Below, piece by piece: positions 7,875 through 53,712 of a stretch of 64,000 bases of DNA. The notes under the pieces are model-generated. The model was not told where the DNA came from. It saw only the letters and a list, made by a program, of their open reading frames with translations, and did no database searches. The stretch's first letter is position 1; every line of letters starts with the position of its first letter. Made by a program: the position numbers and the translations under genes. The DNA lies in NCBI GenBank assembly GCA_903813345.2, contig CAIIXF020000011.1, positions 22,489,754 to 22,553,753 on the forward strand, read 5' to 3'. Origin of the DNA: Owenia fusiformis (lineage: Eukaryota; Annelida; Polychaeta; Sabellida; Oweniidae).

Positions 7875-8885
7875 AGAAATATTGAAATAATTGACATTCA
7901 TACGTTGGTCTTTTCCATGTATTTTTTTCTATGAAATCAATTTTTTGCTCATCCTAACAGAACAGTTCTGGGAAACATGTATGGATATTCCCAATGACAT
8001 CCGAAGACATTCTCACAATACAGCTCTTCTCAAGTGCCTTAAAGATAAGCAAGGTTCCTCCTAACATTGCGGTGGAACTCTTCAACAAGTTATGAGAACG
8101 AGTTTGAAGAGTTCCTCCACTGTGTTCTTATTAACTCTTATAGTATTGCTAGACATTTAGCGACGAAGATAGTTAAGTCAATTTCAGAAACAATTTACAA
8201 ATTGATTCAGTTAAGAGGCCACGGCGCTAATTATTCAATATATATGCTTGCAAATCAAGGAACATGTTAAACTGAGAGTACATCGTAAAGGTTTGCATAA
8301 TGTTTTAAACCTCAAGTATCCATAACGGTTTGATATACTAAACAATAGAATGGTTTCGGAACTCACTAATAGCATGTTCATTATTCCATTACGCAGCTCT
8401 TTGCGTCCATAGTGTAATTTTAGGGAGTTTAAGCTTGCATATAAAATCGAAGCGCCAACCTATACGTATGGCCAATCCCCCATTCAAATGCATCGCTTGA
8501 ATATTTTCAGTTCACATTTAGGTTGTGAAAAACATTGCAAGCTTAAACTCCCTATTCTTACGTATAGACGTCGATCAAAAGAATATTACGTATAGAGCTG
8601 CGCAATAAATGGTGACCCAGTAGTCAAACGCTTCATAAGTGATACGTTACCAGGTTACTGGAATAATAAACATGCTATAAGTAATATGCGAAATATATAT
8701 TATTTTACGGATACTGAAGTACACGGAGCTAAAAACGTTATGTTTTCCCTCCCATGGATACATCATACACCATATAAAACGTATATTTAATGTGCTTTAA
8801 AGTTATTTAGGAGTGCACTTGTAAAAAATATCCTGTACATATTTACACAAACATATGAAATATATTCTTTTTTCCTAAGTTTTCA
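7875..8885. other. 3' flank of the growth-factor gene, no further gene
   Basis: It contains the presumed 3' UTR and one hairpin element (8388-8606). No other feature is supported. Confidence 0.6.
8388..8606. mobile_element. Hairpin MITE (~219 bp)
   Basis: The outer arms ATTACGCAGCTCT and AGAGCTGCGCAAT are near-perfect inverses. The inner arms TAGGGAGTTTAAGCTTGCAT (8421-8440) and its inverse (8534-8554) also pair, so the element folds along most of its length. No transposase fragment is present. Confidence 0.7.
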
Positions 8886-9640
8886 TTCAATGACTAATAG
8901 ACGAGGAGTGAAAATGAGAATTTGAGGAGATTAATAGTTCAGAGTATATAAGGACGCGTCATACCTTAATCTCTTCGTTTATATATGCTTTCAGTGAAAA
9001 AAGATATATTTTAAATCATAGTGAGGGACAATGATGTTTAAGACGCCCGTTTCCATGGCAACTTAATTTTACCACTGCTAATGAGGACTATTTCTAATAT
9101 TAAATATATCTTTGTCATTTTTTATCCGATTTTGATGATATTAACGCCAAATGAAAGCTTAAGGAACAAAGATAATGATTGGTTAAAAATTATGCAAATT
9201 AGCTCATTTGCATATCAACTGTGACGTCATAATCCAATTTTTTGTTCAATAATATATGTTTTTTTTAATACTTTAAACAATACAAACTATTGTTTCATTG
9301 AATCATTGAGGATAACTTAGGATATCTTATTAAAGTATAAATATTTAACATCATAGCTCCATTATGATATAAAATATGAGGCATAATAAGTATAAATAAG
9401 TATAAGTATAAATGTAGTGTATTGAAGTTGTTTATTTGAAAATTTTAGTGCTGATAAATGTACCTTTATAATGAAACAGGGAACTTGAAATGAAGTTTCA
9501 CAATCTAACTCTTATTATAACATTTTAATAAATACTGTGCCAAATGAAAGCTACCAGTTTAACCTATATGTATTTAATGATAACTAATGCAGAAATGTGT
9601 GTTAGTGATATATCGGTTACCATGGCAACCACATTAAATA
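8886..9640. repeat. Left terminal inverted repeat of the 8.5-kb element
   Basis: It matches the reverse complement of 16630-17392. Shared landmarks in order are GAGGAGTGA, GGAGATTAATAGTTCAGAG, the TGAGGGACAATGATG block, the palindrome ATGCAAATTAGCTCATTTGC (9193-9217), CATCATAGCT, and GGTTACCATGGCAACC near the inner end. Confidence 0.85.
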
Positions 9641-9923
9641 ACAAAAAGATTGTTCCTGTTATCTAGTATATCTGATCATTTATTATCTCTTATATCATTG
9701 TTCAGGCCAATTTCAAACAATTCAATTTTTTCAAGTCATTTAAAATTGTTTTCCAGATCAGGTTTTATTATTCTAGAATTATATCATCCTTTGAACAATT
9801 ATATTTCTGAATTTTTGCTTCTTCTTTCACTATAATGTTTTGTTATACATCCACTTGGCAGTCATGTCTTCAGTTATGTGTGGTTATGTGTTCAGGCTAA
9901 GTAAAAATGATGGCAGTTACGTA

Positions 9924-10290
9924 TTCAGGCATTGGCACTGAATTTGTAGGTAAAGATGGTAGTAGTTATGTCTTCAGGCATTGGCACTGAATTCATAGGT
10001 AGAGATGGTGGAAGTCATGACTTCAGGCATTGGCACTGAATTCATATGTTAAGATGTTGGCAGTTATGTCTTCAGGCATTGGCACTGAATTCATAGGTAA
10101 AGCTGGTGGCAGTTATGTCTTCAGGCATTGGCACTGAATTCATAAGTAAAGATGGTGTTCGTTATCTCTCCAGGCATTGGCACTGAATTCATGGGTAAAG
10201 ATAGTGGTAGTCATGACTTCAGGTATTGGCACTGATTTCATAGGTGAAGGTGGTAGTAGTTATGTCTTCGGGCATTGGCATCGAATTTGG
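9924..10290. repeat. 49-bp minisatellite, about 8 copies
   Basis: Starts of the core TTCAGGCATTGGCACTGAAT fall at 9924, 9973, 10022, 10071, 10120, 10169, 10218 and 10267, an exact 49-bp period. Units diverge by a few bases. The array lies between the left TIR and the 3' end of the nuclease+CXC gene. Since 49 is not a multiple of 3, it is not a coding repeat. Confidence 0.93.
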
Positions 10291-10390
10291 CACGGAAATT
10301 TGCGGAGAATGAGCAGATTTTCTATAATAGACAGATCTTGAAGGCACCCAGTATTTGACCAGTGTCCAAATAAATATCTCACCTCTGAAT

Positions 10391-10785
10391 TTAAGAATAT
10401 ACATTTTTACAAAGAGCTGCATCTCCGAGGCATGGGCATAGAATTGTGCATCCACTAGATGCACATTCACAATTTTTAAGGCATATGGCCTTACCTTTGC
10501 AAGAGCAAAGAAATCCTTCAATGACTTCTGAAGCTGAGGGGCCTTCAAACTTTGTAGTTACAATATCCCCTGCCACCAATGACCACCCATGTCCTATTCT
10601 TTCTGGAAGTTCAGGATATGATTTGTGTGATTGTGTCCATTGCAAACTCTGCCACAAGGCTCTCAGTGCATGTTGACGAAATGCAGGTTCACTTGGTGGT
10701 AATTTGAGTAGGGATTTGTATTTTACTGAGGTTTTCAATAAGTGAGCGCGTAATTTTCCTAGATTGCCTAGTTTTAATAGATCGT
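10391..10785 (-). pseudogene. C-terminal CXC (tesmin/TSO1-like) cysteine domain
   Basis: Reading in the shifted frame from about 10785, the sequence continues LLKLGNLGKLRAHLLKTSVK and then reaches a cluster CSCKGKAICLKNCECASSGC followed by CPCLGDAALCKN and a stop. The spacing C-x-C-x5-C-x3-C-x-C-x4-C-x3-C-x-C-x6-C is that of CXC domains, which bind DNA through a three-zinc cluster. In a mobile element this would be a plausible end- or target-binding module (inference). Confidence 0.75.
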
Positions 10786-11556
10786 GACGTGTTGTTTGGG
10801 ATCATACATATTCCCCACTATTCTTCTTGCATCATCAATGAAGCTATCCATTTCAAGAGTCTTCATCCCATCGAAGCCATCACATCCTACCTTTTCAATA
10901 GTCTTTACAAAAGCCTTTTTGCCATGACCATAGAAAGATGATGTAAAGTCACATCCAGACATGGCATGCAACATTGGTAGTAGACTACAGAACATGTGCC
11001 CCCTTTGGTCAACAATGCAGTGAATAGGAATAAATCTATGGTTGTTGGTTGTCCCAGTGGCTTTCCCAGTTTCAATCCATATCTTTTGTGTGTTGATCAT
11101 TTTTTTGAAATAGTAAACTGCAAGAACAAGAACATCAGTATCTAGAGATTTAATGACTACTTCATGGTTTCCTGGGTCTGCCTCTTCGTTGAGTTTCATG
11201 AGGTGAAATATTACTCGTGTATCAGCTTCCTCGTGTGAGGATGCTAGAGCATCAATACTCGTTTTCTGTTGTTTCGAAATCATCACACATGTTTCACCTT
11301 CTTCTTTGAGTCCTCCTGCTATGTAAAGTTTTTGTGACCCAATCAAATACTTTTGAATAGTGGTCATAACATATTTTGTGATGAAGTCCACAATACAGGC
11401 CTTGTTGTCATCAACATTTAGAAATTTTCTCCAGTCTGGTACCATTCTCTCTGATTTAACCTGATATATCTTTTCATGCACAGCCATTTTTCTCCTTTTT
11501 CTCTCTTCTGCCTTTGGAGAGTCAGCCTTATCATACCTATCAAACACCAGTTTCAC
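10774..11556 (-). pseudogene. FEN1/XPG-like (PIN-type) nuclease region
   Basis: 260 codons beginning LVFDRYDKADSPKAEERKRR. Motifs in order are SSHEEADTRVIFHL, then IKSLDTDVLVLAVYYF, then HAMSGCDFTSSFYGHGKKAF. The spaced acidic pairs (EEAD, DTD, GCD) followed by a Gly-rich turn resemble the XPG-I motif and the helix-turn-helix of flap nucleases (compare GCDYxxGxxGxG). The fold assignment is an inference from motif order. Catalytic activity is untested, and this copy is broken on both sides. Confidence 0.6.
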
Positions 11557-11586
11557 AGTGCTAGCTAGTCTGAGCCAGCATATGAT

Positions 11587-13134
11587 TTAATTAAGGAAGT
11601 GTTGTCCAATTTGGTAAAAGTTGTTGAATTTGTCTCCCAGTATGGCCTGTATAACACACATTCCATCTATTATATATGATGTGTTATCTGGATCAGAGGA
11701 AGGGAAAATAGTCGTTTGATTGAGTTGCAAAACCTTGACAAGGTCTGACTTGACATTCTTCCTCATGCTTCCATCATCATGGAATATTGCAGGAGGGATT
11801 ATGGTAATTGGATGTTCTAGCATAGTATCTATGTTGACATGAGGTCTTTTGCTGCAAATTGTTAATGCTCTTTGGAAGATGGTTTCAGCACCTATTGCAA
11901 CAGCCACAGTCTCTGTCCTTGTTTTAACCTTGGACTTTGGGTGTATGTCACAGAATGTTACAAGTTTGTTTTGTTTTATCGTCTGGTAGAAATTGGTTGA
12001 TTGTTCCTCAAGAGCTGAGGATACAAACTGATACATTTTCATCGAACCAGAATTGACAACAGATAAGAGTGAACGTTGTACATCTTCACTTGCATGAACA
12101 CCCGTTGATATGTTTAGGAGAACATTAGGATGACTATGTACATCAAATGGATTAGTCATTCTGTTCTTTATATGATCTTGGATGAGCTTGACATCATTTT
12201 CGTCACGTATCAAATTAGAATGGCACTCTTGTGGATGAGGCATGTGCTCATTCGAAGATTCACTGCATCTATCTTTAAAAGTAGATATCCTGCTGAATAT
12301 ATGCCTAGTTAGGCTCCATCTGATCATTGTTTGTGGTTTGCTTGTGAGACCAACTCTGCCCCCATCTCCCTTTGCATCTTTAATTACAGTGGTTTCTGTC
12401 CCCATATCTGACCAAATTCCACTAAAACCATGACTTGTTTTGCGGATGGAAAATTTTCCTTCTTCAAATGCACTTTGAACAGCTTCTGGTAGGTTCATCA
12501 TATCAAGGATGTAGACTGGAGACCACCTGGCATAATTTGTTTTGTTTGCTCCAAAAAAGTATGGTAACATCTTAGCCACACTTGTAAGATGCATATCCCA
12601 ATCGCCACCTCTTTCCGCTCTTAGGTTTTCAAGAAAGGTTTCACAAGCTTCTAGGAACATTGTCCAAAAAGTAAATGTTGGTGATTGGTTGCAGCCCCAT
12701 TCTCTGTATTCATTCAGTTGTGGAAGCAGTTTATCTGTAATCCCTTTCTCAAATTCTTTTCTGGAGGTTTTCATCGCCTCACCACCCTCTGTATGTGCAT
12801 TGACACAATCATCAATATGAGTCCAGATTTCAGATACATTATCATTTTCCTCACACCATTTAATGAAAGATAGAAGAAATGTTTGCATCACTGCTTCATT
12901 TGTCAGTGCTATCCCTCGTAAAGCCCTCTTGAACTGCTTTCCCTGTAGCATTTGATCTACAGTATTTGCTGCATTAACTCCAGATTCGACAAGGATATCC
13001 CTAAGCCCAGAGTCACCGCATATCTTTCCAATGCAAGAGATAAAACAACACATCATGTGAAAGCCACCTAGTCTAATAATGCTGTTTCCAAACTCTGCTT
13101 TATCCCACTTAACCTGTAAGGCTAACTTATACAA
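11587..13134 (-). pseudogene. Central part of the nuclease+CXC gene
   Basis: 515 open codons. The first codon in this segment is TTG, and the frame really continues upstream (FDQQLYKLALQVKW context) until the slip near 13165, so this is not a natural start. It contains LGGFHMMCCFISCIGKI, NPFDVHSHPNVLLNISTG and ASEDVQRSLL, with repeated Trp and Cys. The region 13135-13320 upstream reads in the other frame as TAYPPIIDTPPSNIGTVFTT, linking it to the N-terminal part. Function of this region is unknown. Confidence 0.7.
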
Positions 13135-13614
13135 CTGTTGATCAAATGTTTGTATGGTATACGGCTGCCCAATTCATCATTTCCTTACTTTTCGTCATAG
13201 TCGTAAATACCGTTCCAATATTGGAAGGAGGGGTATCTATGATTGGTGGATAAGCAGTGGCAGTGATTAAGTTTGTTCCTTTGCTGCGACCATGTGATAG
13301 TAACCAGTCCACAAAGGGATAATTTGAGCTTCATGAATAGTATTTACCATAGGCAAAGCTCCTCTGCACCCCATGCGTAGCAGTATCCACCCTATATCAG
13401 ATGACAGTGAATTATAGTTTGATTTCTCTATCATTGTTCTGATGGAAACTTTGGCTTCTGGATATTTTGGAGGGCTTGGTCGGGTAATAGGCTTTGTATA
13501 TGGCAAAGGCAAAGTCAGATCAGACTTTTTCTTATCATCAACAGCCAAGGCTCTTGCGGATGATGGATTTATTTTCATTGTGATGTGTTCAAAAGCATCA
13601 TTTGGATCTTGATC

Positions 13615-14793
13615 TTAAAATACTACCCTGGCCATTGAGTGGAAGGAATTTTTTCCATCAATGGTCTCCGCATTTATATCTATGTTGTCATCACCCTCAT
13701 GTATAATATTTCCCCCATCTGACACTGGTTTTATATTTGGTGGGACATACACTCCATCTGTCATTTGATCTGATTCATGCTGCGCTATAGCAGTCGAGAA
13801 GCGGCGTAAGGTATCATAGCTCACACAAAATCCATGAGAATGCAGGTTATCAATGAGTTCCTTCCTGCCATAAGTATGATGTAGCTGTACAGCTAGGCCT
13901 AGAGTAAATGGAGTTATGTTGCTTTTGCGCATGTTTGACAGGAGACATTCAGCAAGTGTTAAAGCTTTGCGCTTCAATACATGGTTGGTGCAATCATTTG
14001 ATTTCAAAGTGTGAGCTTTTGGATCAGCAAGCCAGGGCATCATTGTTTTAAGAAGTTGTGGTAGATTTTCTTCAACTTTGTCCATTTTCATCTGGTCTAC
14101 TTTGGGAAAGTCATCGATGGTTGTGTATATCTGAGCTTCTTTTATCAATGCCACAGCCTCGTGTATAACACTACACTTTCGCTTGTGTTCAGTAATGGTG
14201 GAATCTGGAAGATTTGACATTATCGTGTTTTCTGTAATGGCCTCAATTTCTTCTAGTTTCAAATTATCGAATGCTTTCAAAATATCTACATCTCTTTCTC
14301 TGACTATTGAAGTCATGCCCTGGCCTTGTCTTGTTTGGATAACTATTTCACCTCCGTAATGTTTCTTTAGTTTTCTATATAAATTTGAGGAGCTATAACT
14401 ATGTGACTCATCCAGGAGATATGATTGATATTTATTCACTAGATCAATCATTTTGAAGACTTCACTGTCATTCATCAATCGCTGATTAATGTCTTTTAAA
14501 AGTTCTTCAAAGGAACCTTTGTGAATATCTTTATTTTCTTCTCCTTCTTCTTTCTTTCCCAAAAATTGCAGAATTCTTCTGGCAACATAGCTTGATCTGC
14601 AATTGTTATGATAGCAAGCTTTATTGTAGACAAGATCAACATCTAAGACTCTGCACATCATTGCTTCATCATTTCTCATCACAGCTGTATCCTTAATAGT
14701 TTGGCTAGATTTATCATCTTCAATCCTGTGAGTATTACTGCTGCCTTTATATTTTCTTTTTTGACAAAACATGCATTTTGAATTTTCATTCAC
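13615..14793 (-). pseudogene. N-terminal part: zinc-binding-like region and helical middle
   Basis: 392 codons from the ATG at 14793 to the TAA at 13615. The first 75 residues contain CMFCQKRK and later VYNKACYHNNCRSSYVARR, a CxxC...CYxxxC arrangement suggesting zinc binding. The remainder is charged and helical. It ends DGKNSFHSMARVVF before the stop, and the same frame continues beyond it with similar character. The stop therefore looks like a nonsense mutation. Confidence 0.7.
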
Positions 14794-15208
14794 ATGTTAC
14801 AGGCATTGGAAATGCTGGGGACGTAGTTGGATCTGAAAGATGAATAAATCAGTAATTATAAGATTTATCAGAACAAGTCTCTGCTGTCTTTCAAATGGGC
14901 ATTCTAATTATGACTTGATAACAGCAACAGCAAAGTGTGACAAATCCTATCAAACAGCAAGAAAAAATACTCTATGTTGTTGGTTCATCAATATTTTCTT
15001 TAAATATATGTCCTTTGATACGTTAGCCTCTATATTTTAACAGTTGATAAATGAAAATCTTAAAAATAATAAATTACTTAATTAAAAAAAAGTATCAGCA
15101 AAATAGCTTACTTTTAATAAGAAAAATATTCTGCAGCCAGTGAGCCTAAAATCCTTAGAGTCTAAAGTAATGCATGTTTTGCAGTTTGTTTGTGATGTCA
15201 CCAGTATT
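14794..15208. other. 5' flank of the nuclease+CXC gene inside the element
   Basis: It is non-coding, lies between the gene start and the LINE insertion, and has no promoter motif I can defend. Confidence 0.5.
15192..15208. repeat. Target-site duplication, left copy (17 bp)
   Basis: GTGATGTCACCAGTATT, identical to 16452-16468. It marks the 5' boundary of the LINE insertion. Confidence 0.95.
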
Positions 15209-16451
15209 CGTATTTAATGCAATCATTTATTTTACCAGATAAATTGTTAAATAGAATTAACACCATGATGTTCAAGTTCATATGGGCAAAAGGAAAATTC
15301 AAAGAGGAAGACCTTAAAAAGGTGCCTGATAAAGTAAAAAGAGATATTTTAGTACAAGGCTATGATTGTGGTGGTTTAAAAATGATTAACTGTAAAGACT
15401 TACAAATTGCATACATGATTCAATGGATTAAAAGATTAACAGAGAATGGCGATGGCCACTGGAGAGCTATACCAGAGTATATGTATGGAAAATTAGGTAA
15501 AAAGTTTAGTGTTCTCAACAGCAATATAAGTGCTGATCAGTTGAAAGGTATCGCTCATTTGAGCATTTTCTATAAAAAATTATTATTTACATGGCTTGAG
15601 AATAGCAATTATACAGATGAATCTATAATATGGAATAACAGAAATATTGTATTAAGTAGATATCCCTTGTACTTTCACAACTGGATAGAAAAGGGTTTAA
15701 TCTACATATCAGATGTTGTTGTGAATGGACACTTAAAACCATATGAGGTAATTTCTGAATTGATAGGAAAAAATGCTGAAACTTTAATGCAATATAACAT
15801 TTTAAGAGCTTGTTTAAATCAAGAGAAAATTCATATGTATGGTAATATAAAACCCAGTGAAACACTAGTATTTCGAGGAATAGAAATTGAAAAATTAACA
15901 TCACAGAAAACCAGGAATAAGCTTGTAAAAGAAAGGCAGTGTGATGTACAATTTAATGGTTTGACTATTGGTTCAGACATTTGGAATCAGCTATTTAAAT
16001 GTATGTCAGACACTGGTCTTTTAAGTATCCAATGGAAAATTTTCCATGGTATATATCCACATAGTGGTTTATTAAAAAAATATAACATAGAACAATCTGA
16101 TTTATGTAAACTATGTAACGAAGTTGATAATATTGAACACTTTTTTATACATTGTAATGCAATTAAAAATATTTGGAAAGATGTAGCTTTGAATGATAAT
16201 GAAAAAATAGGGATGGGAATATTAGATAAAAAGTTATTATACAAGTCACTTGTAATAAAGAAAACTATACATGACTTTAAGTTTTCAAAGAATGAGAGAA
16301 AAAATATATCTGTAATGTTTGAATATGAAAAATATGTTAGAAACATTGTTGATTGAGAAAATGTATTTAAAGTTTTTGAAATATTCATTTTGAAATATTG
16401 ATTTGTATGCTAATGAATGATAGAAATAAAAAAATAAATAAATAAAAAAAA
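15209..16451 (+). mobile_element. 5'-truncated LINE insertion
   Basis: A 1,243-bp non-LTR retrotransposon 3' end sits inside the 8.5-kb TIR element. Evidence is a perfect 17-bp target duplication on both sides, an open ORF running in from the truncated 5' edge, and an A-rich tail of AAATAAATAAAT type before the second duplication. Target-primed reverse transcription commonly leaves this structure. The ORF is undamaged and the duplication is perfect, so this is the youngest clearly dated event here. Confidence 0.93.
15217..16356 (+). CDS. LINE ORF2 C-terminal segment (post-RT region and zinc knuckle)
   Basis: 379 codons, open to TGA at 16354-16356. The first residues FILPDKLLNRINTMMFKFIW and KKVPDKVKRDIL...GGLKMINCKDLQIAYMIQWI match the region after the reverse-transcriptase core in L1/Tx1-like LINEs. 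Near the C-terminus is LCKLCNEVDNIEHFFIHC, the zf-RVT CxxC...HxxxxC knuckle. The catalytic RT and endonuclease parts were lost by 5' truncation, so the product cannot mobilise itself. The Met at 15217 is internal to the original ORF. Confidence 0.88.
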   Translation: MQSFILPDKLLNRINTMMFKFIWAKGKFKEEDLKKVPDKVKRDILVQGYDCGGLKMINCKDLQIAYMIQWIKRLTENGDGHWRAIPEYMYGKLGKKFSVLNSNISADQLKGIAHLSIFYKKLLFTWLENSNYTDESIIWNNRNIVLSRYPLYFHNWIEKGLIYISDVVVNGHLKPYEVISELIGKNAETLMQYNILRACLNQEKIHMYGNIKPSETLVFRGIEIEKLTSQKTRNKLVKERQCDVQFNGLTIGSDIWNQLFKCMSDTGLLSIQWKIFHGIYPHSGLLKKYNIEQSDLCKLCNEVDNIEHFFIHCNAIKNIWKDVALNDNEKIGMGILDKKLLYKSLVIKKTIHDFKFSKNERKNISVMFEYEKYVRNIVD

Positions 16452-16468
16452 GTGATGTCACCAGTATT
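16452..16468. repeat. Target-site duplication, right copy (17 bp)
   Basis: Perfect second copy of GTGATGTCACCAGTATT, directly after the A-rich LINE tail. Confidence 0.95.
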
Positions 16469-16629
16469 ATTGATTGTTGTCTTGACAACAACAGAACAAC
16501 AAAACAAAAACAAACAAAAAACAAAAAAAGATTCCTTTTTCGATTAGCTTTCACTCGGTTTCAGTATGATTAAAATCTGATTACTAAGCTATACAAGAAT
16601 AGCTAAGCTAAGCAAGAATATATTTGATA

Positions 16630-17392
16630 TTGAAATATGGTTGCCATGGAAACGAGTGTGTCACACATGATCATTTTTAATGATTTATAAACAGTCATCT
16701 AGAGTAAGTAGCTCTCATTTGGTACTTACATTACAAATTTTACATTAATATAAATTAAATTCATACATAAAGAAACCATATTTTTCATTTAACATTTTTC
16801 ATTGCATTTACTGTATAATTTGTAAACATTTTGAATTTTGAATATGCAACTTGAGAATGCCATAATTGTAATAATTTAAGCTAATAAGCCTCATATTATA
16901 TATCATTGTGAAGCTATGATATTCTAGAAGTGTTTTATAGTGAAATATAATAAATCTACCATGACGGTTTAATTAAATAGCAGTTTATATTGTAAGAAGT
17001 ATTAAAAAAACATCAATAATTAGATATAAATTATGGTTATGACGTCACAGTTGATATGCAAATGAGCTAATTTGCATAATTTTCAGCCAATCATAATTTT
17101 TGTTCCATTAGCTTTCATTTGGTGTATATTTCATCAAAATCTGATAAAAAATGACATAGTTATATCAAATAATAGAAATAGTCCTCATTAACAATGGTAA
17201 AATTCAGTTGCCATGGAAACGGACTTCTAAAACATCATTGTCCCTCACTATGATTTAAAATATACATTTTTTCACTGAAAGCATATATAAATGAAGAGAT
17301 TAAGGTATGACACGTCCTTATATACTCTGAACTATTAATCTCCTTTAAATTGCACAATTGAGGATTTCACTCCTCACCTATAATGGATTGAA
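16630..17392. repeat. Right terminal inverted repeat of the 8.5-kb element
   Basis: Inverse of the left arm. Its inner end has GGTTGCCATGGAAACG, then the GCCTCATATTA block, the octamer palindrome (17057-17081), CATTGTCCCTCACTATGATT, and outer TTTCACTCCTC. Confidence 0.85.
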
Positions 17393-23879: not shown

Positions 23880-24965
23880 GTAGTGAGTTAGACCATTCAA
23901 GGGGTTATATAGAAAGATTCCCATTATTATGGAACCAGACTCCCAAATATTTGAATGAGTCTTCAATTTTGAGTTGATCTCCATCATACAAAAATCTAGG
24001 TGTTTCTTTCTTTCTTTTCTTAGAAAATATGACAACATTGGTCTTTTTAGCATTAACGACAAGTAATTTTTGCTCGCAATATGACTTTGACGCATCAAGC
24101 CCACTTTGTAAACCTAGCTTTGTTTCTGATAAGATAACAGTGTCATCAGCATACATGAGGATAAACAATTTTAAAAGGCAATTAATACATTCAGACAATT
24201 TCAAATATTGACAACCTTGGCTATTTACAATAAAGTCTTCCATATCATTTACAAATAATGAGAATAATAATGGAGATAAAATTTCGCCAGTTCTCAAACC
24301 ATTCATACAGAGAAAAATATTCAGATGTTTCTTCATTAACAGAAATGCATGATTTTGCATTAGAATATACATCTTTGATACAATTCAATATTTTACTGTT
24401 TACCACAAAATTGCTCTATCTATTTTGTCGAAACATTGTTTAAAATCTACAAAAACCGTGTATATTTTTTTCTTTTGCATACTAAGCATAAGATCAATGA
24501 TGTTATATAAACTGAATATTTGATCATTACATCCTTGATTTGGCATGAAGCCAGATTGATCAATATTCATTAAATTGTTTTTAGCTACAAATAAATACAA
24601 GTAGAGCGTTTGTTTAATACTGCTGTAAATAGCCTAAACAAGACAATAATGTGATGCCTCTGTAATTCCAAGAGTTTGTTTGTCTCCGGGTCACCTTATT
24701 CTTAAAAATGGGTTTAATAATTCCAATAAGCATGATTCTGGCACTTTCCCTGAATTCAAAACATTGTTAAATAAAACAGTATAAAAGTTAGTAAGTATGT
24801 CAAAAGTGCATTTGATATATTCATTGAGTATGCCATCTGTACCAGCACTTTTACCATTTTTCAGTTTTTTAACAATTCATCTGCTGTTATTTCAGCATTA
24901 AGCATATCATTTTCCAAACAAAGAATTGTAACAAACTGTTTATCATTGATGCTTTGCAATTATGT
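23880..24965 (-). pseudogene. Dead LINE reverse transcriptase
   Basis: Minus-strand translation from about 24900 gives GKSAGTDGILNEYIKCTFDI and LNSGKVPES (RT fingers). It continues with NIDQSGFMPNQGCNDQI, VFVDFKQCFDKIDRAILW, GLRTGEILSPLLFSLFVNDM, then the catalytic ILMYADDTVILSET and FKYLGVWF. Several stops and frame slips break it (for example around 24400-24372 and 24600-24680), and part of the stretch after ILW is missing. It is a non-LTR retrotransposon relic, flanked by inverted copies of the GC-rich TIR element. Confidence 0.88.
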
Positions 24966-27590: not shown

Positions 27591-27964
27591 ATGAATCTTT
27601 ATTGCCTCCATAATATATTGGAGAGTACATAATTATAATATGCAAGAACATGATGTTTAAATGACATAAATACAATATGTACAATATAAATATAACCAGG
27701 TGAGTGCAAGCCATCTTCCCCAAGGTCGATAAGATATCTCAGCCAGGAATAAATGTATGTTAATTGATGAGGTTACATTAGTTTTCAACCGCTACCTCAA
27801 CGTCCCATCAATAACCCATGAAACATTTTTTTTGTACATAAATCATATTACACAGTATACAATCATAAGATTAATTATTGAGCCATTTTTACATCCTAAC
27901 TTAGCTAATATACATTGTATGAATTGCTTTTGCAATTGCTACGTAACTCTCCATTTTTAATATT
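27591..27964. other. Non-coding spacer
   Basis: AT-rich, with no gene or repeat structure that I can define. Confidence 0.5.
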
Positions 27965-29191
27965 AGGTCAGCAGCTGAGCAAATTTAAAAAAATAAGTTT
28001 GTCCCCTAAGTTTCTCACTGGATTCATGTAGAGCAAGGTCTTGGGCTTATTTTGAGCTTGGGTTCTCTGTCCTAGCCCCGGCAACGAATGTGAAAACTGG
28101 TCATATAGGTGGCACCCCCTACAATTCACCCCCAAACTTAAAACTAATTATTATTTTCATAATTTAAACATAAAGACATCTCAAATAGCTTAAATTGATC
28201 AATGGTACATTAAATTATGCATTAAAAATTTTTTCAATTAGTGAAAATCATAATTAATGGAGAAAACGTTGATTAACCCCTTAAAACGCCCCTATTTTAA
28301 AGGGGGTACTTAAGTTAACTTCCGTAACTTTTGTGTTATTCAGGATTTGGGCTTAAAAATATTCCTGAATATGTATAATTATGCTGTTGAGAGACTGCAG
28401 TAACCCTATGTTCATAGCTTTATCACTTTTTGAGAAAATAAATAAAACGTATTTCCATATAATTTGGTTTTCGTATTATTTTCAGATAAACCATCATCTA
28501 TACTTTTTAATTTACTTTCCACACCTTATACCCATGCATAGTATTGATAGTTTTCTTTCATTTCAGACCAATATAGATGACTGGAGTTCATAATAGTTTA
28601 TAATAATAAATAATAAAATAAAATTTAAGCAGAAATAATTGATTTACCCCTTAAAATGCCCCCTATTTTAAAGAGTGTGTGTGGGAGACTAAGGAAATAT
28701 TTTTGAAATTCACATGCATTGAAAGCTTATGATGTTTGGCAATGAATGTTTTAATATGCTGGTATTCATAATGGTGAGTTTAATATTAATAGCAAATGTA
28801 AACCATCCAAAATTTCTGAATAAAAGCAAAATTATAATCGATTTTACATCATGAGACAACCCCAAACCTGATATATCTCCTAGCGACCATTAAGTCCATG
28901 TTTTCACCAAGATCCACAACTGAGTTTTAAATACTCTAGCATGCATTCCAAGAGGATGAACCAATGTATGGGCTTATATAATTAAAGATTCAATCTCTCC
29001 TTGCAGGTTACTTACTAACATGTAAAGTAATTAAAACAATTACTACTTAACATATATTGTTTTTTGGATTGTGCTGTTACAATGACTGTATTGTGCTGGC
29101 ACAATCACGTCAACACAATCAAGAGGTACATTTATTTCTCTTTGTTTGCTTCATCAAGTGATCTGAAAGATGAGAAGTAATAATGTACATA

Positions 29192-32897: not shown

Positions 32898-33951
32898 TAT
32901 ATATATATATACAATCACTTGGTCCTCGTTTCTCATGGGATTTTATCATCACTAATTCTGTGCATGTATTAAGCTCATGTGATGATGTATTATATGAAAT
33001 CCAAATTTCTATCAAATGGGGTCGTGAATCGCCACAATATAGCGTCTTCAATATCGTCAATGGCAACAGAATCTGAATTTGAGATAATTTACAAAGACAA
33101 CAGCATATGGTAAATTATTTATTTATTTAGGAGCAAAGGTTAACTATTAAGTCTCCCACACACACAAGTCTTCAAATTCAAGGATATTTTCAAGCCTAAA
33201 TCTTGAACGAAACATAAGTTACAGTGAGTTATAGAAGCTATAGTGTATGTATTCCTATATAAGGGGTGTTTTAAGAGGTAAATCAATAATTTCTAAATTA
33301 AATTTTTTATTATTATTTATTTTAAGTGAACTACAGTCATCATATTGGTCTAAAATGAAAGAAAAGTATTAATACTATGCATGGGTATAAGGTGTGTAAA
33401 GTAAATTAAAAAGTATAGATGATGGTTTATCTGAAAATAATACAAATCCAAATTATATGGAAATACGTTTTATTTTTTTTCTCAAAAAGTTATAAAGCTA
33501 TGAACATAGGGTTACTGCAGTCTCTCAACAGCATAATTGTACATATTCAGGAATATTTTTAAGCCCAAATCCTGAATAACACAAAAGTTACGGAAGTTAA
33601 TTTAAGTATCCCCTTTAAAATAGGGGGCGTTTTAAGGGGTTAATCAACTATTTCTCCATAAATTATGATTTTCACACATTGAAAAAATTTTTAATGCATA
33701 ATTTAATGTACCATTGATCAATTTAAGCCATTTGAGATGCCTTTATGTTTCAATTATGAAAATAATAATCAGTTTTAAGTTCGGGGGTGAATTGTAGGGG
33801 GCGCCACCTATAGGACCATTTTTCACATTCGTTGCCGGGGCTAGGACAGAGAACCCAAGCTCAAAATAAGCCCAAGACCTTGCTCTACATGAATCCAGTG
33901 AGAAACTTAGGGGACAAACTTATTTTTTTAAATTTGCTCTGCTGCTGACCT

Positions 33952-34059
33952 ATATGTGACCTTTCCCAAATGTGATTGCTAACTTTGTTTCGTCTGGGCT
34001 GTTATTCGGGATACAATTTGTGCTTAAAACTCGTTGGATTATGTCCCTATCACGTGTGT
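33952..34059. other. Short non-coding link before the LINE nest
   Basis: No supported feature; this may be the 3' tail of the older LINE. Confidence 0.3.
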
Positions 34060-38470: not shown

Positions 38471-38911
38471 GTTACTTGTATCCTCTTTATCGCCTCTGCA
38501 CTGGCTGTTACATGATCGGTTCGACCTATGTTCAGTTTAACTGCACATTTATAACCTTCATATTTAATTCATGATTCATCAAAAAGTGTTGGTTGAATCT
38601 GTTTAAAACTTGATTGATATATCATGTGACGACCCTTCTAACATGTGCTTATAATTATTGTGATTTACCATCAAATGTGGGTTGTTAAGCTCATAAACCA
38701 AGGTTTTTGGAGAAATTAAACATTGAATTAATGGAGACTTGGCCCAAGTTTTTAAAAAGTCATCGAAAATGACTTATATATTAATCATAGCTGTATGAAT
38801 CAAAGTTATTCTTGTAGAAAACAGTTCAGTGAATTCAAATGTGCTATTTAAAAGAAGGCAAAGTAAGTGATAAGAGCTTTCAAGCAGAAAGTAATACGCG
38901 TCGAGACGTAT
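38471..38911. repeat. Dispersed repeat, inverted copy at 52920-53205
   Basis: 38560-38875 matches the reverse complement of about 52920-53205. Shared words include TTGGTTGAATCTGT, CAAGGTTTT, TGGGCCAA/TTGGCCCAAG and AGTGAATTCAAATGTGCTAT. No coding content was found. Confidence 0.65.
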
Positions 38912-39072
38912 ACTCAGGGACCCAAGTTCTGAGAAACAGCTAGAAAGTGAAAATGGATATTGGAAAGTATTACGCGAGATTTTTTCAGTTCTTGTTGGAA
39001 AATAAGTTACTTTTATGATGTGGGGTGATATCTAGAGTTTGAGACTTGCGAAAATAAGATATCTTCATCTTT

Positions 39073-40112
39073 ATACCCCCCGCCCTATAATTTTAGGGGG
39101 GTCAGAAGAAAATAGACTTTAATTCATAACTTTGGAAGTATATGAGATACAAACTTCATTTTTTCACCAACATTTATGAAATAACATCAGTAATGAAGAA
39201 AAAATATTTTGAATGAAAAAAAACTAATTTGCATAATTTAACCCTTAAACTGCCATAAAAACTAGTAAATGACGAAATGATGTTATATCACATCTACTGT
39301 TATAGCCTTCATATGAAGTTATAACTTATGAAATAATTCCTAAATATGCATCTATATATGTATAATAAATGTGCAAAATATTAGAAGTGTATCTTACATA
39401 AAGACTGTGAAAAGAATTCTCCCCCTATCCAGATTTTTGAGGGGAGGGGGTCAAATAAAAATGGACTTTAATTCATAATTTTAAAAGTATATGAGGTACA
39501 AACTTAATTTTTTCACCAAAGTTTATGTAATAACATCAGTAATTCAGAAAAAAAATATTTTTGATACGCAAATAAGCTAATCTGCATAATTTAACCCTTA
39601 TACAGTCATAAAAACTGTTAAGTGACGATGCGATAAAATACGACATTTACTCTAATTGACCTCTCATGAAGTTTTAACAAATAAAGCAATTCCTAAAAAT
39701 GCATCTATATATGTATAACAGATGTGCAAAATATTAAAAGTGTATCTTACATAACGACGCTGAAAAAAAATTGTCCCCCTACCCAGATATTTATTTATTT
39801 ATCAAATCGAAATGGACTTTAATTCATAACTTTGGAAGTATATGAGGTACAAACTTAATTCTTTCACCAAAATTTATGTTATAACGTCAGTAATTCGGAA
39901 GAAATATCTTGATATGAAAATAAGCTAATTTGCATAATTTAACCCTTATACAGTCATAAAAAACGTTAAATGACAAAGTGATGAAATACGAAATTTACTT
40001 TAATTGACTTCTATGAAGTTATAACTTGTGAAATAATTCCTAGAAATACATTTACAACGGGTATGCACAATATAAAAAGGGTATTGTATATAATGAGTGT
40101 GAAAAAATCTCA
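39073..40112 (+). repeat. Tandem array of ~350-bp unit, left arm
   Basis: Unit boundaries marked by C- or G-rich runs (CCCCCCGCCC, CTCCCCCTA, GTCCCCCTA, CACACCCTA) fall near 39073, 39420, 39773 and 40110, giving spacings of 347, 353 and 337 bp. Confidence 0.85.
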
Positions 40113-40284
40113 CACCCTACCCTAATATTTTAGGGTTGGGGGAAGTTAAAAGAAAATAATAAACTTTGATTCATAACTTTGAAATCGTATAAGAAAGAGC
40201 TTATACATGTATTTCTTCGCCAGAATATTGAGAAATCACATCAAGAATGAAACAAATATTACATGGAAACAATATTATACTAGT

Positions 40285-40660
40285 AGTAGTAGTAAATTTA
40301 TTAATTAAAGTCTAACACACTAAAGATGTTACATTAAGATACATACATGAATTAAAACAATTCCTGGTTGATGCCAACCTATTAGAGACCATCGCATGTA
40401 ACTATTTCACGCCTTTTGACTAACATATTTATCATACATTTTCCAAGTGTCATTTGAACAGTTTTTTTCATTCATTATTATACAATATTTTCCAAGACTT
40501 GTATACATGTAAAAGTCACTATGGATATCAGTCATTTAGGCAAACAGACTTAATCGTTCATTTTCAAATATATGACATTCTACTTTAAAGTGAGTTTCTG
40601 ACTCCATTGACTGTCCACATGGGCACGATCTCTGGTCTAGGGGAGTTGCGTTATTTTTGT
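40285..40660 (-). pseudogene. LINE 3'-end relic with zinc knuckle
   Basis: Minus strand near 40625: CPCGQSMESETHFKVECHIF then ENERLSLF, the CxC...HxxxxC knuckle at the end of CR1/L2-type ORF2. The 3' side ends in a (TAC)n run (plus CTAGTAGTAGTAGTA at 40282-40296), the microsatellite tail common in this LINE group. Confidence 0.7.
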
Positions 40661-40786
40661 TTATATTTCAATATAAAAACAAACTATCATTGGATGTATT
40701 ACACTTGTTTGCAGCATCCAAAATGATATTAGAGCATTACCACTAACTATGGATGCATTTTTGGTTTATAACAATTATACATTTCA

Positions 40787-41050
40787 ATGAATGCTGACAA
40801 ACCACTTTTTGAGATTCCAGAGCCAGGGAATGGATTTGGATGTCAAGTGGTTCATATTACTCTTGAGACCATTAAAATGACCAAAAAACCGAAACTTGAT
40901 ATAACAAAAATCCCAAAGTCATTTTGCACATGCAAACGATACAAGGACAAAGCGATATGTTAAACCACTTGCTCATGTGCCACTGCAGGTACAGAATGTT
41001 TTGCTGCATGTTCATGCGGCTCAAAGGAAAGTGAGTGTGGACGGGAATAA
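40787..41050 (+). pseudogene. CXC-domain relic inside the foldback
   Basis: From the ATG at 40787, 58 codons run to TAA at 40961 and the same frame stays open to TAA at 41048. Around the first stop the residues are SFCTCKRYKDKAIC, then TTCSCATAGTECFAACSCG and SKESECGRE. The Cys spacing C-x-C-x6-C-x3-C-x-C-x5-C-x3-C-x-C-x6-C is the CXC (tesmin/TSO1-like) pattern, as in the 10391-10785 domain. No nuclease region is visible upstream. It could be the trace of an internal gene of this foldback or a separate insertion. Confidence 0.6.
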
Positions 41051-41685
41051 ATGGATTTACCCAAACATATATGATGACATTTTCACTGCATCAGGTACCT
41101 ACAACCTAGAATATGACACCAGTCCCCACAGTGACTCTGAATATGGTTCAATAAACTTTAGAATTGTTATGGTTACCTTTTTAAGGGTTATTCTGAAACA
41201 TTGCAAGTTCGATTAAACTCAATTTATTCATACATTTAATCATTATGTGTACACATATTATTAATAATAGGTGGCACCACAGGTGATGCTTAAATATCCG
41301 TACATATAGTAGTTAAATCATGAAGTATATCATTATGTTGTCAACGAATCAAACCGGAATGTAATCACAAAAGTTAGATTATAATAAATAAAGGTATGGG
41401 GGATCCATGATGCTCGTTTCATTTGAAGCCAAGAAGGTGCCATATGCCATGGGGAAATTTTATGAATGTGTAGCTTCATTAATTATTATTTAAAGATACC
41501 AGGCTACCGCATTGATGCAAATAATCGTTAAAAGTGTGATTCTTATAAAATATTAGTTATTATTTTACCTTCCCCAAGGTTGGTATGGTCAGAATTATTA
41601 TTTTAGATCTTAAGTAGTTTGGAGCAGCCCCCAGGTTGGCCCATATACCTCCCTTGAGAGCCTACCCTTCTTACTGAAGAAACAA
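41051..41685. other. Foldback core, unassigned
   Basis: Non-coding as far as I can see. The plus-strand open frame over 40977-41216 overlaps the CXC relic in another frame and shows no family motif. Confidence 0.4.
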
Positions 41686-41689
41686 GAAA

Positions 41690-41960
41690 TGATATAGTCA
41701 ACTAATGATTAATAAGCTAAGAGAATATGCTTCTTCAGTTTTGATTTAAGAAAAGAAATGGAATTTGACTTTTTTATTTCTTCTGGGAGATTGTTCCATA
41801 GTATGGAGTAACCACTAAAGGTTTGCCATAATTTTCAGTTTTGCTTTAGGAAGGGTGAAGTTTGATTTGCCTCTAGTATTATATCTATGAAAATCTCCAT
41901 GGGCATTGAAATAGCTTCATAATTGTTGATATCATTTTCCATTTAAATGCTAGTATTAAG
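41690..41960 (-). pseudogene. LINE C-terminal relic
   Basis: Minus strand around 41880-41720, across a frame slip: HRYNTRGKSNFTLPKAKL, then SGYSILWNNLPEEIKKSNSI and SFLKSKLKKHIL. This YNTR...IWNxLP...LK.KLK arrangement is the C-terminus of CR1/jockey-like ORF2, similar to 35390-35587 but from a different copy. Confidence 0.75.
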
Positions 41961-42192
41961 AAAGGATATATCGTCAAAGTCCTTACTTCATGTGAAGTCA
42001 ATTTTAGTATAGAACCACTTTGCCTTATAATGATTCTCATGACTGTTTGAAGCTTAAATTATGCAAATTAGTTGAAATATAGTATGGTCCCCATGTAATA
42101 TTCGTTTCATTATTGATGTGATTTCTCAATTTTCAGCAAAGAAATATAAGCTCTTTCTTAAATTATTTCAAAGTTATGAGTTAAAGTCTATT

Positions 42193-43610
42193 ATTTTCTT
42201 TAACCCCCCCCCCCCGAGCCCTCAAAAGTATTAAGGTAGGGTGTAAGATTCTTTTCACACTCATTATATAAAATAACCTCTTTATATTTTGCATATCTGT
42301 TGTAAATTTTTTCTCGAAGTTATAACTTCATAAAAAGTCAATTAAAGTAAATGCCATATTTTATCACTTCGTCATTTAACGGTTTTTATTACTTTATAAG
42401 GGTTAAATTATGCAAATTAGCTTATTTGCATATCAAAAAATATTTTTTCTGAATTACTGATGATGTAACATAAATATTGGTGAAAAAGTAAGTTTGTACC
42501 TCATATACTTCCAAAGTTATGAATTAAAGTCCATTTTCATTTTGACCCCCCCCCCTCAAATATCTGGTTAGGGGGAGAATTTTTTTCACAGTCGTTATGT
42601 AAGATACACTTTTAATATTTTGCACATCTGTTATACAAATATAAATGCAACTATATGAATTATTTCATAAGTTATAACTTCATGAGAGGTCAATTAAAAT
42701 AAATGTCGTATTTTATCGTTTTGTCATTTAACGGTTTTTATGACTGTATAAGGGTTAAATTATGCAAATTAGCTTATTTGCATATCAAAAATGTTTTTTC
42801 TTAGTTACTGATGTTATTACATAAATTCTGGTGAACAAATAGGTTTATACCTCATATACTTCCAAAGTTATAAATTAAAGTCCATTTTCAGTTGACCCCC
42901 CTGAAATATCTGGGTAGGGGGAGAAAATTTTTCACAATCTATATATAAGATGCACTTTTAATATTTTTCACATCTATTATACATATATAGATGCATTTTT
43001 AGGAATTATTTCATCAGTTATAACTTCATATGAAGGTAATTACAGTAAATGTCATATATTATCATTTTGTCATTTAATAGTTTTTATGGCGGTTTAAGGG
43101 TTAAATTAAGCAAATTAGCTTATTTTTGTTCAAAATATTTTTTTCTCCATTACTGATATTATTTTGTAAATTTTGGTGAAAAAATTAAGTTTGTATCTTA
43201 TATACTTCCAAAGTTATGAATCAAAGTTTATTTTCTTTTGACCCCCTCCCTTCAATTTTAGGGTAAGGGGAGAAATATTTTTCACAGTCGTTATGTAAGA
43301 TACACTTTTAATATTTTGCTCATCTAATATACATATATAGATGCATTTTTAGGAATTATTTCATAAGTTATAACTTCATATGAAGGCAATTACAATAAAA
43401 GTTGTTTATTATCATTCCGTTATTTAATAGTTTTTATGGCGGTTTAAGGGTTAAATTATGCAAATTAGCTTATTTTCGTTTGATATATTTTTTTCTGCAT
43501 TACTAATGTTATTCTATAAATTATGGTGAAAAAATGAAGTTTGTATCTCATTTACTTCCAAAGTTATGAATTAAAGTTTATTTTCTTCTGACCCCCCTGA
43601 AATTATAGGG
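42193..43610 (-). repeat. Tandem array of ~350-bp unit, right arm (inverted)
   Basis: Boundaries near 42193, 42545, 42896, 43243 and 43596 give spacings of 352, 351, 347 and 353 bp. The first boundary carries a run of 13 C. Units are inverted relative to the left arm. Confidence 0.85.
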
Positions 43611-43867
43611 TGGGGGTATAAAGATGAGGATATCTTATTTTCGCAAGCCTCAAACTCTAGATATCACCCCACATCATAAAATAAATATATTTTCCAACAA
43701 GAAAATGAAAAAATCTCGCGTAATACTCTCCAATATTCAAAAACAAAAATATTCAGGCTGGGTCCCTAAGTAGTAATGTAAAGTGTGTTTAGAGGCAAAT
43801 CACGCGCATCAAATTATCAAACGCCATAAGATATCATTTTACTGACCAATCAATCACAATGCCTTAA

Positions 43868-47200: not shown

Positions 47201-50200
47201 GCATTTTGACTTGCATATTTTATATGTTTTCGAATGTTGCCCATTATGCTTTGTCACTATTATGTTAGATAATACCAAGATGATCAATAAAAAGTCTTGA
47301 ATGACTAAAAATAATGATTATTTTGATCATAAATAGAAACAGTGACAATAATGATGTAAAAAAGTGATTTTTCCGTGAAAAGGTAATTTTATACATCTTA
47401 ATAGAATGACCTATATTTTGAAATATAAAGGTCAGGATGACCTAATTTTTGGATCTGGTTATCAAACAAAGTCTCTTCTTTGATATCCTGTACAATTTTT
47501 TTTAAATATCTTGGGGGCTAAAATAGGGTCTTAAAGACACTCGTTCTTTCACAAATAATCTGCCATGATGGGAGTGGTTACAGAAATGGGACAGAAATCA
47601 TATTTTTTACAAAAATATTCACTATATTTTTCAAAAAAATAAAAATATACATATCAGTTGAGAATATTTTGAATTTTTTTTCAAAAATCTATAATTGCGT
47701 TTTCATAAAATTTCATGAAAGTCCTTAAAGGGATCCCAATAAGACTGTACCTTTTGCAATATAGTGCCAGGGCGGGTTCTTAGTATAATATAATTTAACA
47801 AGTCCTTCGACTTGGATTATATTTGATCTAAAAGAGGAGTTCATGATCAATTGATCCCCCATTCTATTTGATGATATATTTTAAATTTTAGTCGCCTTGC
47901 TGATATAGCAGTATCAATGAAATGTTAGCTAAGTTTTTTTCAACCTGTCTTAATTGCCAGCTTTAGTTCATACAATCTCCTGGAGACCTTCCCATACCGC
48001 ATACTCACTGGGGTTTGCATCAGGGCTATTAGCTTGGCAATCATCAGGCCGTATCATCAGGAATAATTTGTAAATTATGCTTATTTCTCATGGCACACCA
48101 CATGTTTAAGTGAGACGCTGGTGACATATTTTATTCATGTAAAAGTGTAAAATTCATGATCAATGGCTAGATAACAACCTCAAGTTTCATTTGGTATGCA
48201 AATTATGATTTTGTATCAAAAATTAAAAAAAGTTATAGCACTAAAAAAGTGGCGTTTTTTGGCCCACCCTGTGTAAAGTTAAAACCCCATTTAAGTAGCA
48301 AGACAATAAAACTATAGTTTATTTTAAAGAATGTACAGTTGTAACAAAAGACTGGTACATTATTTTTCCATTGTCTGTAAAAAACCGTAATTGGAAAGCT
48401 ATCAACAAGGTATAGTATTAACATGACAACTGCAAAGTGTCACCACCTTGCAAGTTATTGCACATAGTTACAGACGCCGCATATTGTTACAGAAGCCGCG
48501 AATTTTGACAGACGCCGAATGCAAATTGTTACAGTCGCTGAACGCCTTCCAAAAAACGTTTGGTGTTAAATAACAATATGAATGTATATATGTACTCTTT
48601 TATTACTATGCATTCTTTAAAATAAAACATCTTATTGTTTTGTGCTACTATCTGTAGTATTGAGCTAAGTGTAAGTTAAACTGGACCATGGACCATCTAC
48701 CTTTCATAAGAGACAGTGTGGGGTTTAAGTTAGTTTTAAGTTCAAATTTGATCAACTTGATTTGTGTGTTTTTGTCAATTTGTGGATTTATAAAATATTA
48801 TATTTGTTAATACTGTGAAATGTATTATCAAACGTAGAGTAAAATGTAACATAAGCTGCCAATTCAAGCATAGTTTAGGTATTTATCTCAGCTATTCAAA
48901 ACATTAATGATAAAAGACTCTCACCGCTAATTCAATCCAAGGACCGATATCTGGAGAGCAAAGAAAGAAACAGAGTTCCTCAAAAAACTGTTTCTGACAC
49001 TGTGGTTCAAGTGCCACCTTCTGAGGACAGTGCAGGTAATCAGTGATGTTCTGCCAGTTATATTCAGTCATGAAGGGCAGCGTTACTCCCTTCTTACAGC
49101 ATGAATTACCGACAAATGTAGAACACTGAAACAAGGATGAAGGTGAAGAATTAGTTCAAATTTTCCCTCTTTACACTTTTAAGATATGAACAAGTTATTC
49201 GAAATTAGTACATACTTACTATAAACGTCAAATAATAATGCTCTTACAGGTACTAGATATCGTATCTAACGATGAATTATAAAAAGAAATGTACTTTTTT
49301 CATAAAAAATATTTCCTTGCTTTTTTCAGGAAAGTATCATTAGACTGTCTATTTTGGGTAAACCTGGAAACAGGTCAATGGTAGCTCCTGTGTTGTCTGG
49401 AAACTTTGAAAGAAAATTTGGAAAAATAGAAAATAGAAAGTGTGAACTATAAGAATTTCCCAGAGTTCCCATTGAACTCCTACCAGATATTTTAAAAGAA
49501 GACAATGTAATGATACTTTCCTGAAAAAAGCAAGGAAATTGACACATGCCTTCATACTTTATTTTGTACCAGAAAATAACATGTGCAAGATATAGGGACA
49601 GATAATATTCTAACATAGTAAGAGCATTCAATTTACAGTTAGCAAGTGTAAAACAGGCCTTGAGTTTATTGATTTTCTCCCTATATCATGACATGTATAC
49701 CTGTGCAGGTATAGCAATTTTTTACCAAAATGTTTTTTTTTCAGCTGTACCTTAAGGTAACGGTAAAGTTAATCAAAAGTACAAAAAATGGCAGCCATAT
49801 TTTTTGACTAAGTCATAAGATTTTGTATTCTGTATTCCATATATGTGAATGCATTTCCTGACTAAAGAGACATGTCAAAGAAAACTTCACATTTAAACGC
49901 ATTTTTATAACAATGAATTGGAGGTGCATGAGTCCCTAAAGCTAGCATGGAGACAGTGAAGTGAGGATAACTTTTTAAAATTTCAAGGAGTAGGATTGCA
50001 ATGGAGACACATTTGCCTTACCAAGGAACATCAAAGGAGCATAAAAATGTGTACTTCTTGCATTGTTAGAGCATAATAAAGCTCAAACCATTGTAAATTC
50101 TAAATATTTCATGTCCACCAGTTTGTTTGCTGGAACTATTTTCTTGTCCAAAGTAATCCTCACTCATGTATCCATTGTTTACCATTTAAAAAACATCAAT

Positions 50201-53290: not shown

Positions 53291-53447
53291 TTTTCTGCTA
53301 TTTAGAAACTATCCTATTGTTAACCTATCTATTCAGTCAACTGGCAAAAGTGTATACCTCAAATGTAAACCTTGACCGGTGGTCTCGGTCAACAGTGCTT
53401 TAAAAGTTTACAGTATCATTGTATATACGTATACAATTTTGCCAGTT

Positions 53448-53712
53448 CTGCAGTGACTGCACTGTATTGCACTGTTCTGCAGTGACTGTACTGCATTGCA
53501 CTGTTCGGAAGTGACTGCACTGCATTGCATTGTTCTGCAGTGACTGCACTGCATTGCACTGTTCTGCACTGACTGCACTGCATTGCAATGTTCTGCAGTG
53601 ACGGCACTGCATTGCACTGTTCTGCAGTGACGGCACTGCATTGCACTGTTCTGCAGTGACGGCACTACATTGCACTGTTCTGCAGTGACTGCACTGCATT
53701 GCACTGTTCTGT
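53448..53712. repeat. 29-bp minisatellite, about 9 copies
   Basis: CTGCAGTGACTGCACTGCAT starts every 29 bp (53448, 53477, 53506...). Because 29 is not a multiple of 3 and the unit lacks minus-strand stops, all three minus frames are open. Those frames are artefacts, not proteins. Confidence 0.95.

Follow-up and report, generated by a model that had tools for sequence, protein, structure and literature searches.

Among the DNA transposons, Academ belongs to the superfamilies listed with a DDD/E transposase, as stated in passages of PMC9587614. For its AcademX lineage, passages of PMC10045372 give a nuclease and target duplications of 3-4 bp, and for AcademH a helicase and target duplications of 9-10 bp. 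Academ has expanded in bivalves, for which 100 curated elements with a mean length of 5,565 bp are reported in parts of PMC10294476, and accessory nucleases are also described for Kolobok lineages (PMC9587614, in part). In this work, we analyzed a stretch of 64,000 nucleotides from the annelid Owenia fusiformis (contig CAIIXF020000011.1, positions 22,489,754 to 22,553,753; hereafter the window) and found a dead autonomous DNA transposon that most likely belongs to AcademX, a lineage within the Academ superfamily. It consists of two long terminal inverted repeats (TIRs; hereafter the arms) that enclose one degraded gene, and a second element with inverted arms lies in the same window.

Structure of the Element

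The arms are about 790 bp each, and the gene between them lies on the minus strand (Table 1). Their ungapped core (8925-9265 and 17004-17344) has 89% identity over 341 nt, and the gapped alignment (8842-9673 and 17439-16587) has 73% over 848 columns. The outer limits were placed by eye at 8886-8898 and 17380-17392, and the candidate tips are a terminal TTCAAT (8886 and 17392) or TAG (8898 and 17380). Each arm contains two copies of a subterminal module of about 140 bp, and every copy carries GTTNCCATGGNAAC. This palindrome occurs more often than expected in the window, where 13 matches have at most one mismatch, compared to 0.15 expected; matches were counted on both strands, and five of the 13 are located outside the arms.

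The gene is one former reading frame that is now ridden with stops. A single frame covers positions 14793 to 10777, with the exception of approximately 13270-13146, where it is shifted. The frame changes near 13270, 13146, and 10790, and after the last of these changes it continues into the CXC end at 10394. In-frame TAA codons are found at 13617 and 11589, together with a cluster of stops at 13269-13176. The initial annotation had described two inverted arms around a single former open reading frame of about 1,450 codons, with a Cys-rich N-terminus, the motifs HEEADTR, DTDVLVL, and GCDFTSSFYGHGK, and a C-terminal CXC cluster. Our analysis bears out this description, and all of these motifs were located on the minus strand. 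Features that go beyond this annotation are the LINE described below, the 49-bp tandem repeat, the duplicated subterminal modules, the acidic motifs YIID and LVFD, and the second element.

A 5'-truncated long interspersed nuclear element (LINE) separates the former gene from the right arm. The LINE is not part of the transposon but a later insertion into it; it adds 1,260 bp, and the net length of the element without this insertion is about 7.25 kb.

A Homologous Protein and Its Origin

By scanning genome contigs with a two-motif DNA pattern, which covered just one of the two His codons, we found an uninterrupted homolog of the window gene on a single contig (L001) from a bin called Planctomycetota. 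The domain order is the same in both, namely a Cys-rich N-terminus, a long core, a region with nuclease motifs, and a C-terminal CXC cluster. The pieces of the window gene match this protein in the N-terminal region (E 6e-9), the core and nuclease regions (E 5e-80, 29% identity), and the CXC cluster (E 5e-14). The 41-amino acid piece in the shifted frame matches at E 3.6e-4 with word size 2 and gives no match at default settings.

Mis-binned eukaryotic contamination appears to be a likelier origin of L001 than gene transfer. A protein search in 392 genomes of the phylum assigned to its bin returned L001 itself alone (1 of 392), and XPG_I was found in zero of one genome for the bin. Four other pieces of the bin have a G+C content of 0.402-0.412, and L001 is close to them at 0.384. 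No relative was confirmed in the viral contigs scanned, and none was matched in phage records. The 3' flank of L001 is not significantly similar to the window (best E 0.11), and the core of the 31-bp motif described below is absent from it.

Putative Transposase Core and Nuclease Region

The long core upstream of the nuclease region has about 30% identity to L001 with invariant D and E residues. The candidate catalytic residues are the D of DDNID (13689), the D of TFDQ (13143), and the E of TNEAV (12897), all of which are conserved in L001; their positions were counted by hand, and the assignment as D, D, and E is tentative. In Pfam, both proteins have weak matches to DUF6589 (PF20231) at nearly the same profile positions (E 0.0016 for the window gene and E 0.003 for L001). 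Searches of PDB with the core gave one chance-level ribosomal protein for the profile and two chance-level rows for the single sequence. The initial annotation had proposed that a flap-nuclease-like fold is used instead of a DDE transposase. We found no support for this proposal, given the conserved upstream core with its candidate D, D, and E residues and weak DUF6589 similarity, and given that Academ is listed with DDD/E in passages of PMC9587614.

Downstream of the core, the protein contains acidic residues in the order expected from FEN1 and EXO1, namely a D at 11667, a D at 11541, the E and D of HEEAD (D at 11223), the D.D at 11136, and the D of GCD-x6-GxG at 10950. The flap-nuclease-like segment suggested in the initial annotation (10774-11556) contains such residues, with the first one lying upstream of it: YIID (11667) is outside and LVFD (11541) inside, and both complete the FEN1-like set. 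All seven candidate catalytic acids are invariant between the window and L001, compared to 13 of the 39 window Asp/Glu residues overall, in an alignment that was partly anchored by the same acidic motifs. An ordered-motif expression (D..D..E.D..D.D..GxD-GxG) matches the window protein, L001, and four of four archaeal FEN1 sequences. It has no match when either protein is shuffled 20,000 times, and none in 15 bacterial frames. This expression was written post hoc; its first version caught one of the four archaeal FEN1 sequences, and one spacer was then widened. In a search of PDB, a two-row profile of the nuclease region retrieved EXO1 chains alone (four of 177,635 sequences), over GCD-x6-GxG and at E of approximately 1. 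The single-sequence search with this segment found no match in PDB, and the NCBIfam scan returned nothing useful. Judged by its motifs, the region appears flap-nuclease-like, with a putative flap-nuclease fold. AcademX carries an XPG-type nuclease. Among the papers covered by our literature search, none contains both Academ and XPG as whole words.

The window CXC piece matches no Pfam family, including CXC (PF03638, Tesmin/TSO1-like), and L001 scores 10 bits against PF03638, below the cut-off of 23.5. A literature search that linked TSO1-like CXC with transposons gave nothing relevant among the matches listed.

A Second Element with a Shared Arm Motif

The second element in the window is non-autonomous, and its long inverted arms are built of tandem units. 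A near-palindrome of 31 bp, AAATTATGCAAATTAGCTYATTTGCATATCA, has six copies in the window (at most three mismatches; zero expected), every one of them within an arm of the first or the second element. The second element also contains a CXC remnant. When all six frames of the window are searched, the CXC cysteine pattern matches exactly twice, with one site in each element, and it has no match in 60 random sequences of 64 kb; the pattern was written post hoc, when both sites had already been seen. The alignment of this C-terminal stretch to the window gene and L001 extends past the cysteines (E.P...G.G). Since the second element shares a related CXC end and the 31-bp arm motif with the first, gene and arms look like one mobile unit, and the motif is the best evidence that they travel together. 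The suggestion of the initial annotation that this is the mobility gene of a TIR element is thus probably correct, and the second element looks like a related derivative. Common to two otherwise different sets of arms, the 31-bp motif is also a candidate binding site for the protein.

The motif is built on two inverted, octamer-like ATGCAAAT sites. Close to it are TGACGTCA and sites of the CCAAT-like type, and there is a resemblance between the GTTNCCATGGNAAC modules and RFX X-boxes. Together, these arm sites form a promoter-like set. Two stretches outside the elements were considered as possible related fragments (E 0.013 for 19606-19553 and E 0.70 for 18431-18318); read in three frames, they were judged to be probable chance matches.

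Table 1. Features of the two elements and of the homologous protein. Positions are those of the window unless L001 is named.
Feature	Position	Strand	Basis or remark
Left inverted arm	8886..9673	+	Outer limit 8886 or 8898
Outer subterminal module, left arm	9031..9172	+	Contains GTTTCCATGGCAAC at 9049-9062
31-bp near-palindrome, left arm of first element	9187..9217	+	
Inner subterminal module, left arm	9512..9635	+	Contains GTTACCATGGCAAC at 9616-9629
49-bp tandem repeat, 7.8 copies, 3' of gene	9901..10280	.	trf
Former gene, probable transposase, ~1,450 codons	10394..14796	-	Reading frame, homolog L001
C-terminal CXC cysteine cluster	10394..10507	-	Frame reading, L001 alignment
Putative FEN1/EXO1-like nuclease region	10850..11670	-	Ordered acidic motifs, alignment with L001
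Candidate DDE core	12895..13938	-	Conservation with L001, weak DUF6589
Cys-rich N-terminal region (CMFC ... CYHNNC)	14580..14793	-	L001 alignment from NDEAMM on, E 6e-9
LINE target duplication, 17 bp, exact	15192..15208 = 16452..16468		GTGATGTCACCAGTATT
5'-truncated LINE within element	15209..16451	+	zf-RVT (E 2.8e-07), A-rich tail
Inner subterminal module, right arm	16536..16671	-	Contains GTTGCCATGGAAAC at 16640-16653
Right inverted arm	16587..17392	-	Outer limit 17380 or 17392
31-bp near-palindrome, right arm of first element	17052..17082	-	
Outer subterminal module, right arm	17100..17238	-	Contains GTTGCCATGGAAAC at 17207-17220
Second element, non-autonomous, long inverted arms of ~350-bp tandem units	38911..43772	.	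Outer tips inferred
31-bp near-palindrome x2, left arm of second element	39562-39592, 39910-39940	-	
CXC remnant in second element	40925..41017	+	
31-bp near-palindrome x2, right arm of second element	42405-42435, 42757-42787	+	
Homologous protein, 1,466 amino acids, uninterrupted, 5' end open	L001:2112-6512	-	

Classification and Alternative Explanations

The described AcademX architecture, a DDD/E transposase with a nuclease, fits this element, and for this reason the claim in the initial annotation of an undescribed transposon group is not supported: Academ with DDD/E and AcademX with a nuclease are already described in passages of PMC9587614 and PMC10045372, respectively. We therefore favor an assignment to AcademX as the most likely one.

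Several results weigh against this assignment or against parts of it. The placement in Academ draws on architecture and literature descriptions. The target duplication of the first element is possibly TAA and that of the second a candidate GTA, and 2,043 of 5,000 random place pairs also match over at least 3 bp. For the core, the DUF6589 score of the window gene is 17.7 bits, below the cut-off of 27, and the structure prediction with three rows has a predicted local distance difference test (pLDDT) score of 32, from which no conclusion was drawn. Because of this low score and the chance-level PDB profile search, DDE chemistry is a reading that we infer from architecture and literature. For the nuclease, Pfam XPG_N and XPG_I have no match in the window pieces or L001 in scans set to E of at most 10, where the HMMER filters drop most matches above 0.1. 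In a profile comparison with FEN1 (hhalign), P was 0.22 for the whole region and 0.1 for its second half, with a control on the DDE core giving P 0.45. The second half of the nuclease region alone found no match in PDB, and the EXO1-matching stretch alone gave E 6.6. The nuclease structure prediction with two rows has a pLDDT of 33, and again no conclusion was drawn; in both predictions, the L001 sequence was folded, with the window pieces as the remaining rows. For the second element, BLAST with the window CXC piece gave E 0.40, and the L001 protein found no match at E of at most 1.

If the AcademX reading is correct, the cysteine domains at the N-terminus and the C-terminus (CXC) may be what binds the duplicated subterminal sites of the arms. 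The DDE core would then cut and join DNA, and the C-terminal FEN1/EXO1-type nuclease would process a strand or flap at excision or integration.

Among the alternatives, it is unlikely that the element is a DNA transposon outside Academ, in which case it would represent a distinct lineage of a known kind, its mobility gene combining a DDE core and a flap-type nuclease. In its favor, the Academ assignment draws on architecture and literature passages rather than on sequence comparison, and the passages describing Academ make no mention of a C-terminal CXC domain; nevertheless, an element with DDD/E, nuclease, and TIRs corresponds to AcademX as given in parts of PMC10045372 and PMC9587614. Another proposal, which we consider rather improbable, is that the two elements represent an unrecorded clade. 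Its CXC-tailed protein would have a DDE core linked to a true flap nuclease, and it would recognize the octamer-like 31-bp near-palindrome in the arms. The size of the stagger, and with it that of the target duplication, would be determined by the flap nuclease instead of the DDE core.

The model of the initial annotation, in which the flap nuclease itself is the transposase and there is no DDE enzyme, is very unlikely. The nuclease motifs are indeed the clearest catalytic ones, and no standard DDE family was matched apart from the weak similarity to DUF6589. However, the long upstream core is conserved, being approximately 30% identical to L001 with invariant D and E, and the described superfamily with such an architecture has DDD/E (PMC9587614, in part). 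Hardest to accept is a host gene for a CXC protein that was caught by chance between inverted duplications: CXC domains do occur in host proteins and the CXC of the second element is weak by BLAST, but that element also has inverted arms, in which the 31-bp motif recurs, and its CXC end is related, and the gene is a single reading frame full of stops.

If, as the initial annotation presumed, proteins of this shape are common in invertebrates and have no assigned role, they probably act as transposases in which a cut-and-paste enzyme is coupled to a repair-type nuclease.

Other Repeats in the Window

Several other repeats were observed in the window. A reverse-transcriptase-like fragment with a YADD motif (23905-24372, minus strand) appears by eye to be a further LINE remnant. 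Two inverted copies of about 700 bp (27964-28666 and 33259-33952) have 93% identity and a spacing of 4.6 kb, and a large palindrome at 49752-50700 is self-complementary at 76%. In addition, there are a 29-bp minisatellite with 9.2 copies (53445-53711) and a 193-bp satellite with 4.6 copies (62914-63818).

Comparison with Known Systems

The seven ordered acids resemble those of FEN1, EXO1, and XPG (the Rad2 family), and GCD-x6-GxG of the window protein is as in EXO1. In contrast to these nucleases, the window region lacks a Pfam XPG match, and its second and third motifs lie farther apart. The similarity of the core to DUF6589 is weak and consistent between the window gene and L001, and Pfam assigns no function to this family.

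With Kolobok lineages that have accessory nucleases, the element would share the recurring design of a DDD/E transposase and a downstream nuclease (PMC9587614, in part). Kolobok differs in that its nucleases are lambda exonuclease-like, DEDDh, or His-Me and its target is TTAA, according to passages of the same source. AcademH belongs to the same described superfamily as the favored assignment, and its helicase has no counterpart here, as no helicase family was found in the Pfam scans of L001 or the window pieces (all but about 97 bp, 13174-13270).

The element, at about 7.25 kb net, is longer than the mean of 5,565 bp for curated bivalve Academ elements (PMC10294476, in part), and its protein has a CXC tail that is absent from the passages describing AcademX. 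By description, the element and AcademX are alike in being eukaryotic DNA transposons with TIRs and with a nuclease, putative in the element, beside a transposase.

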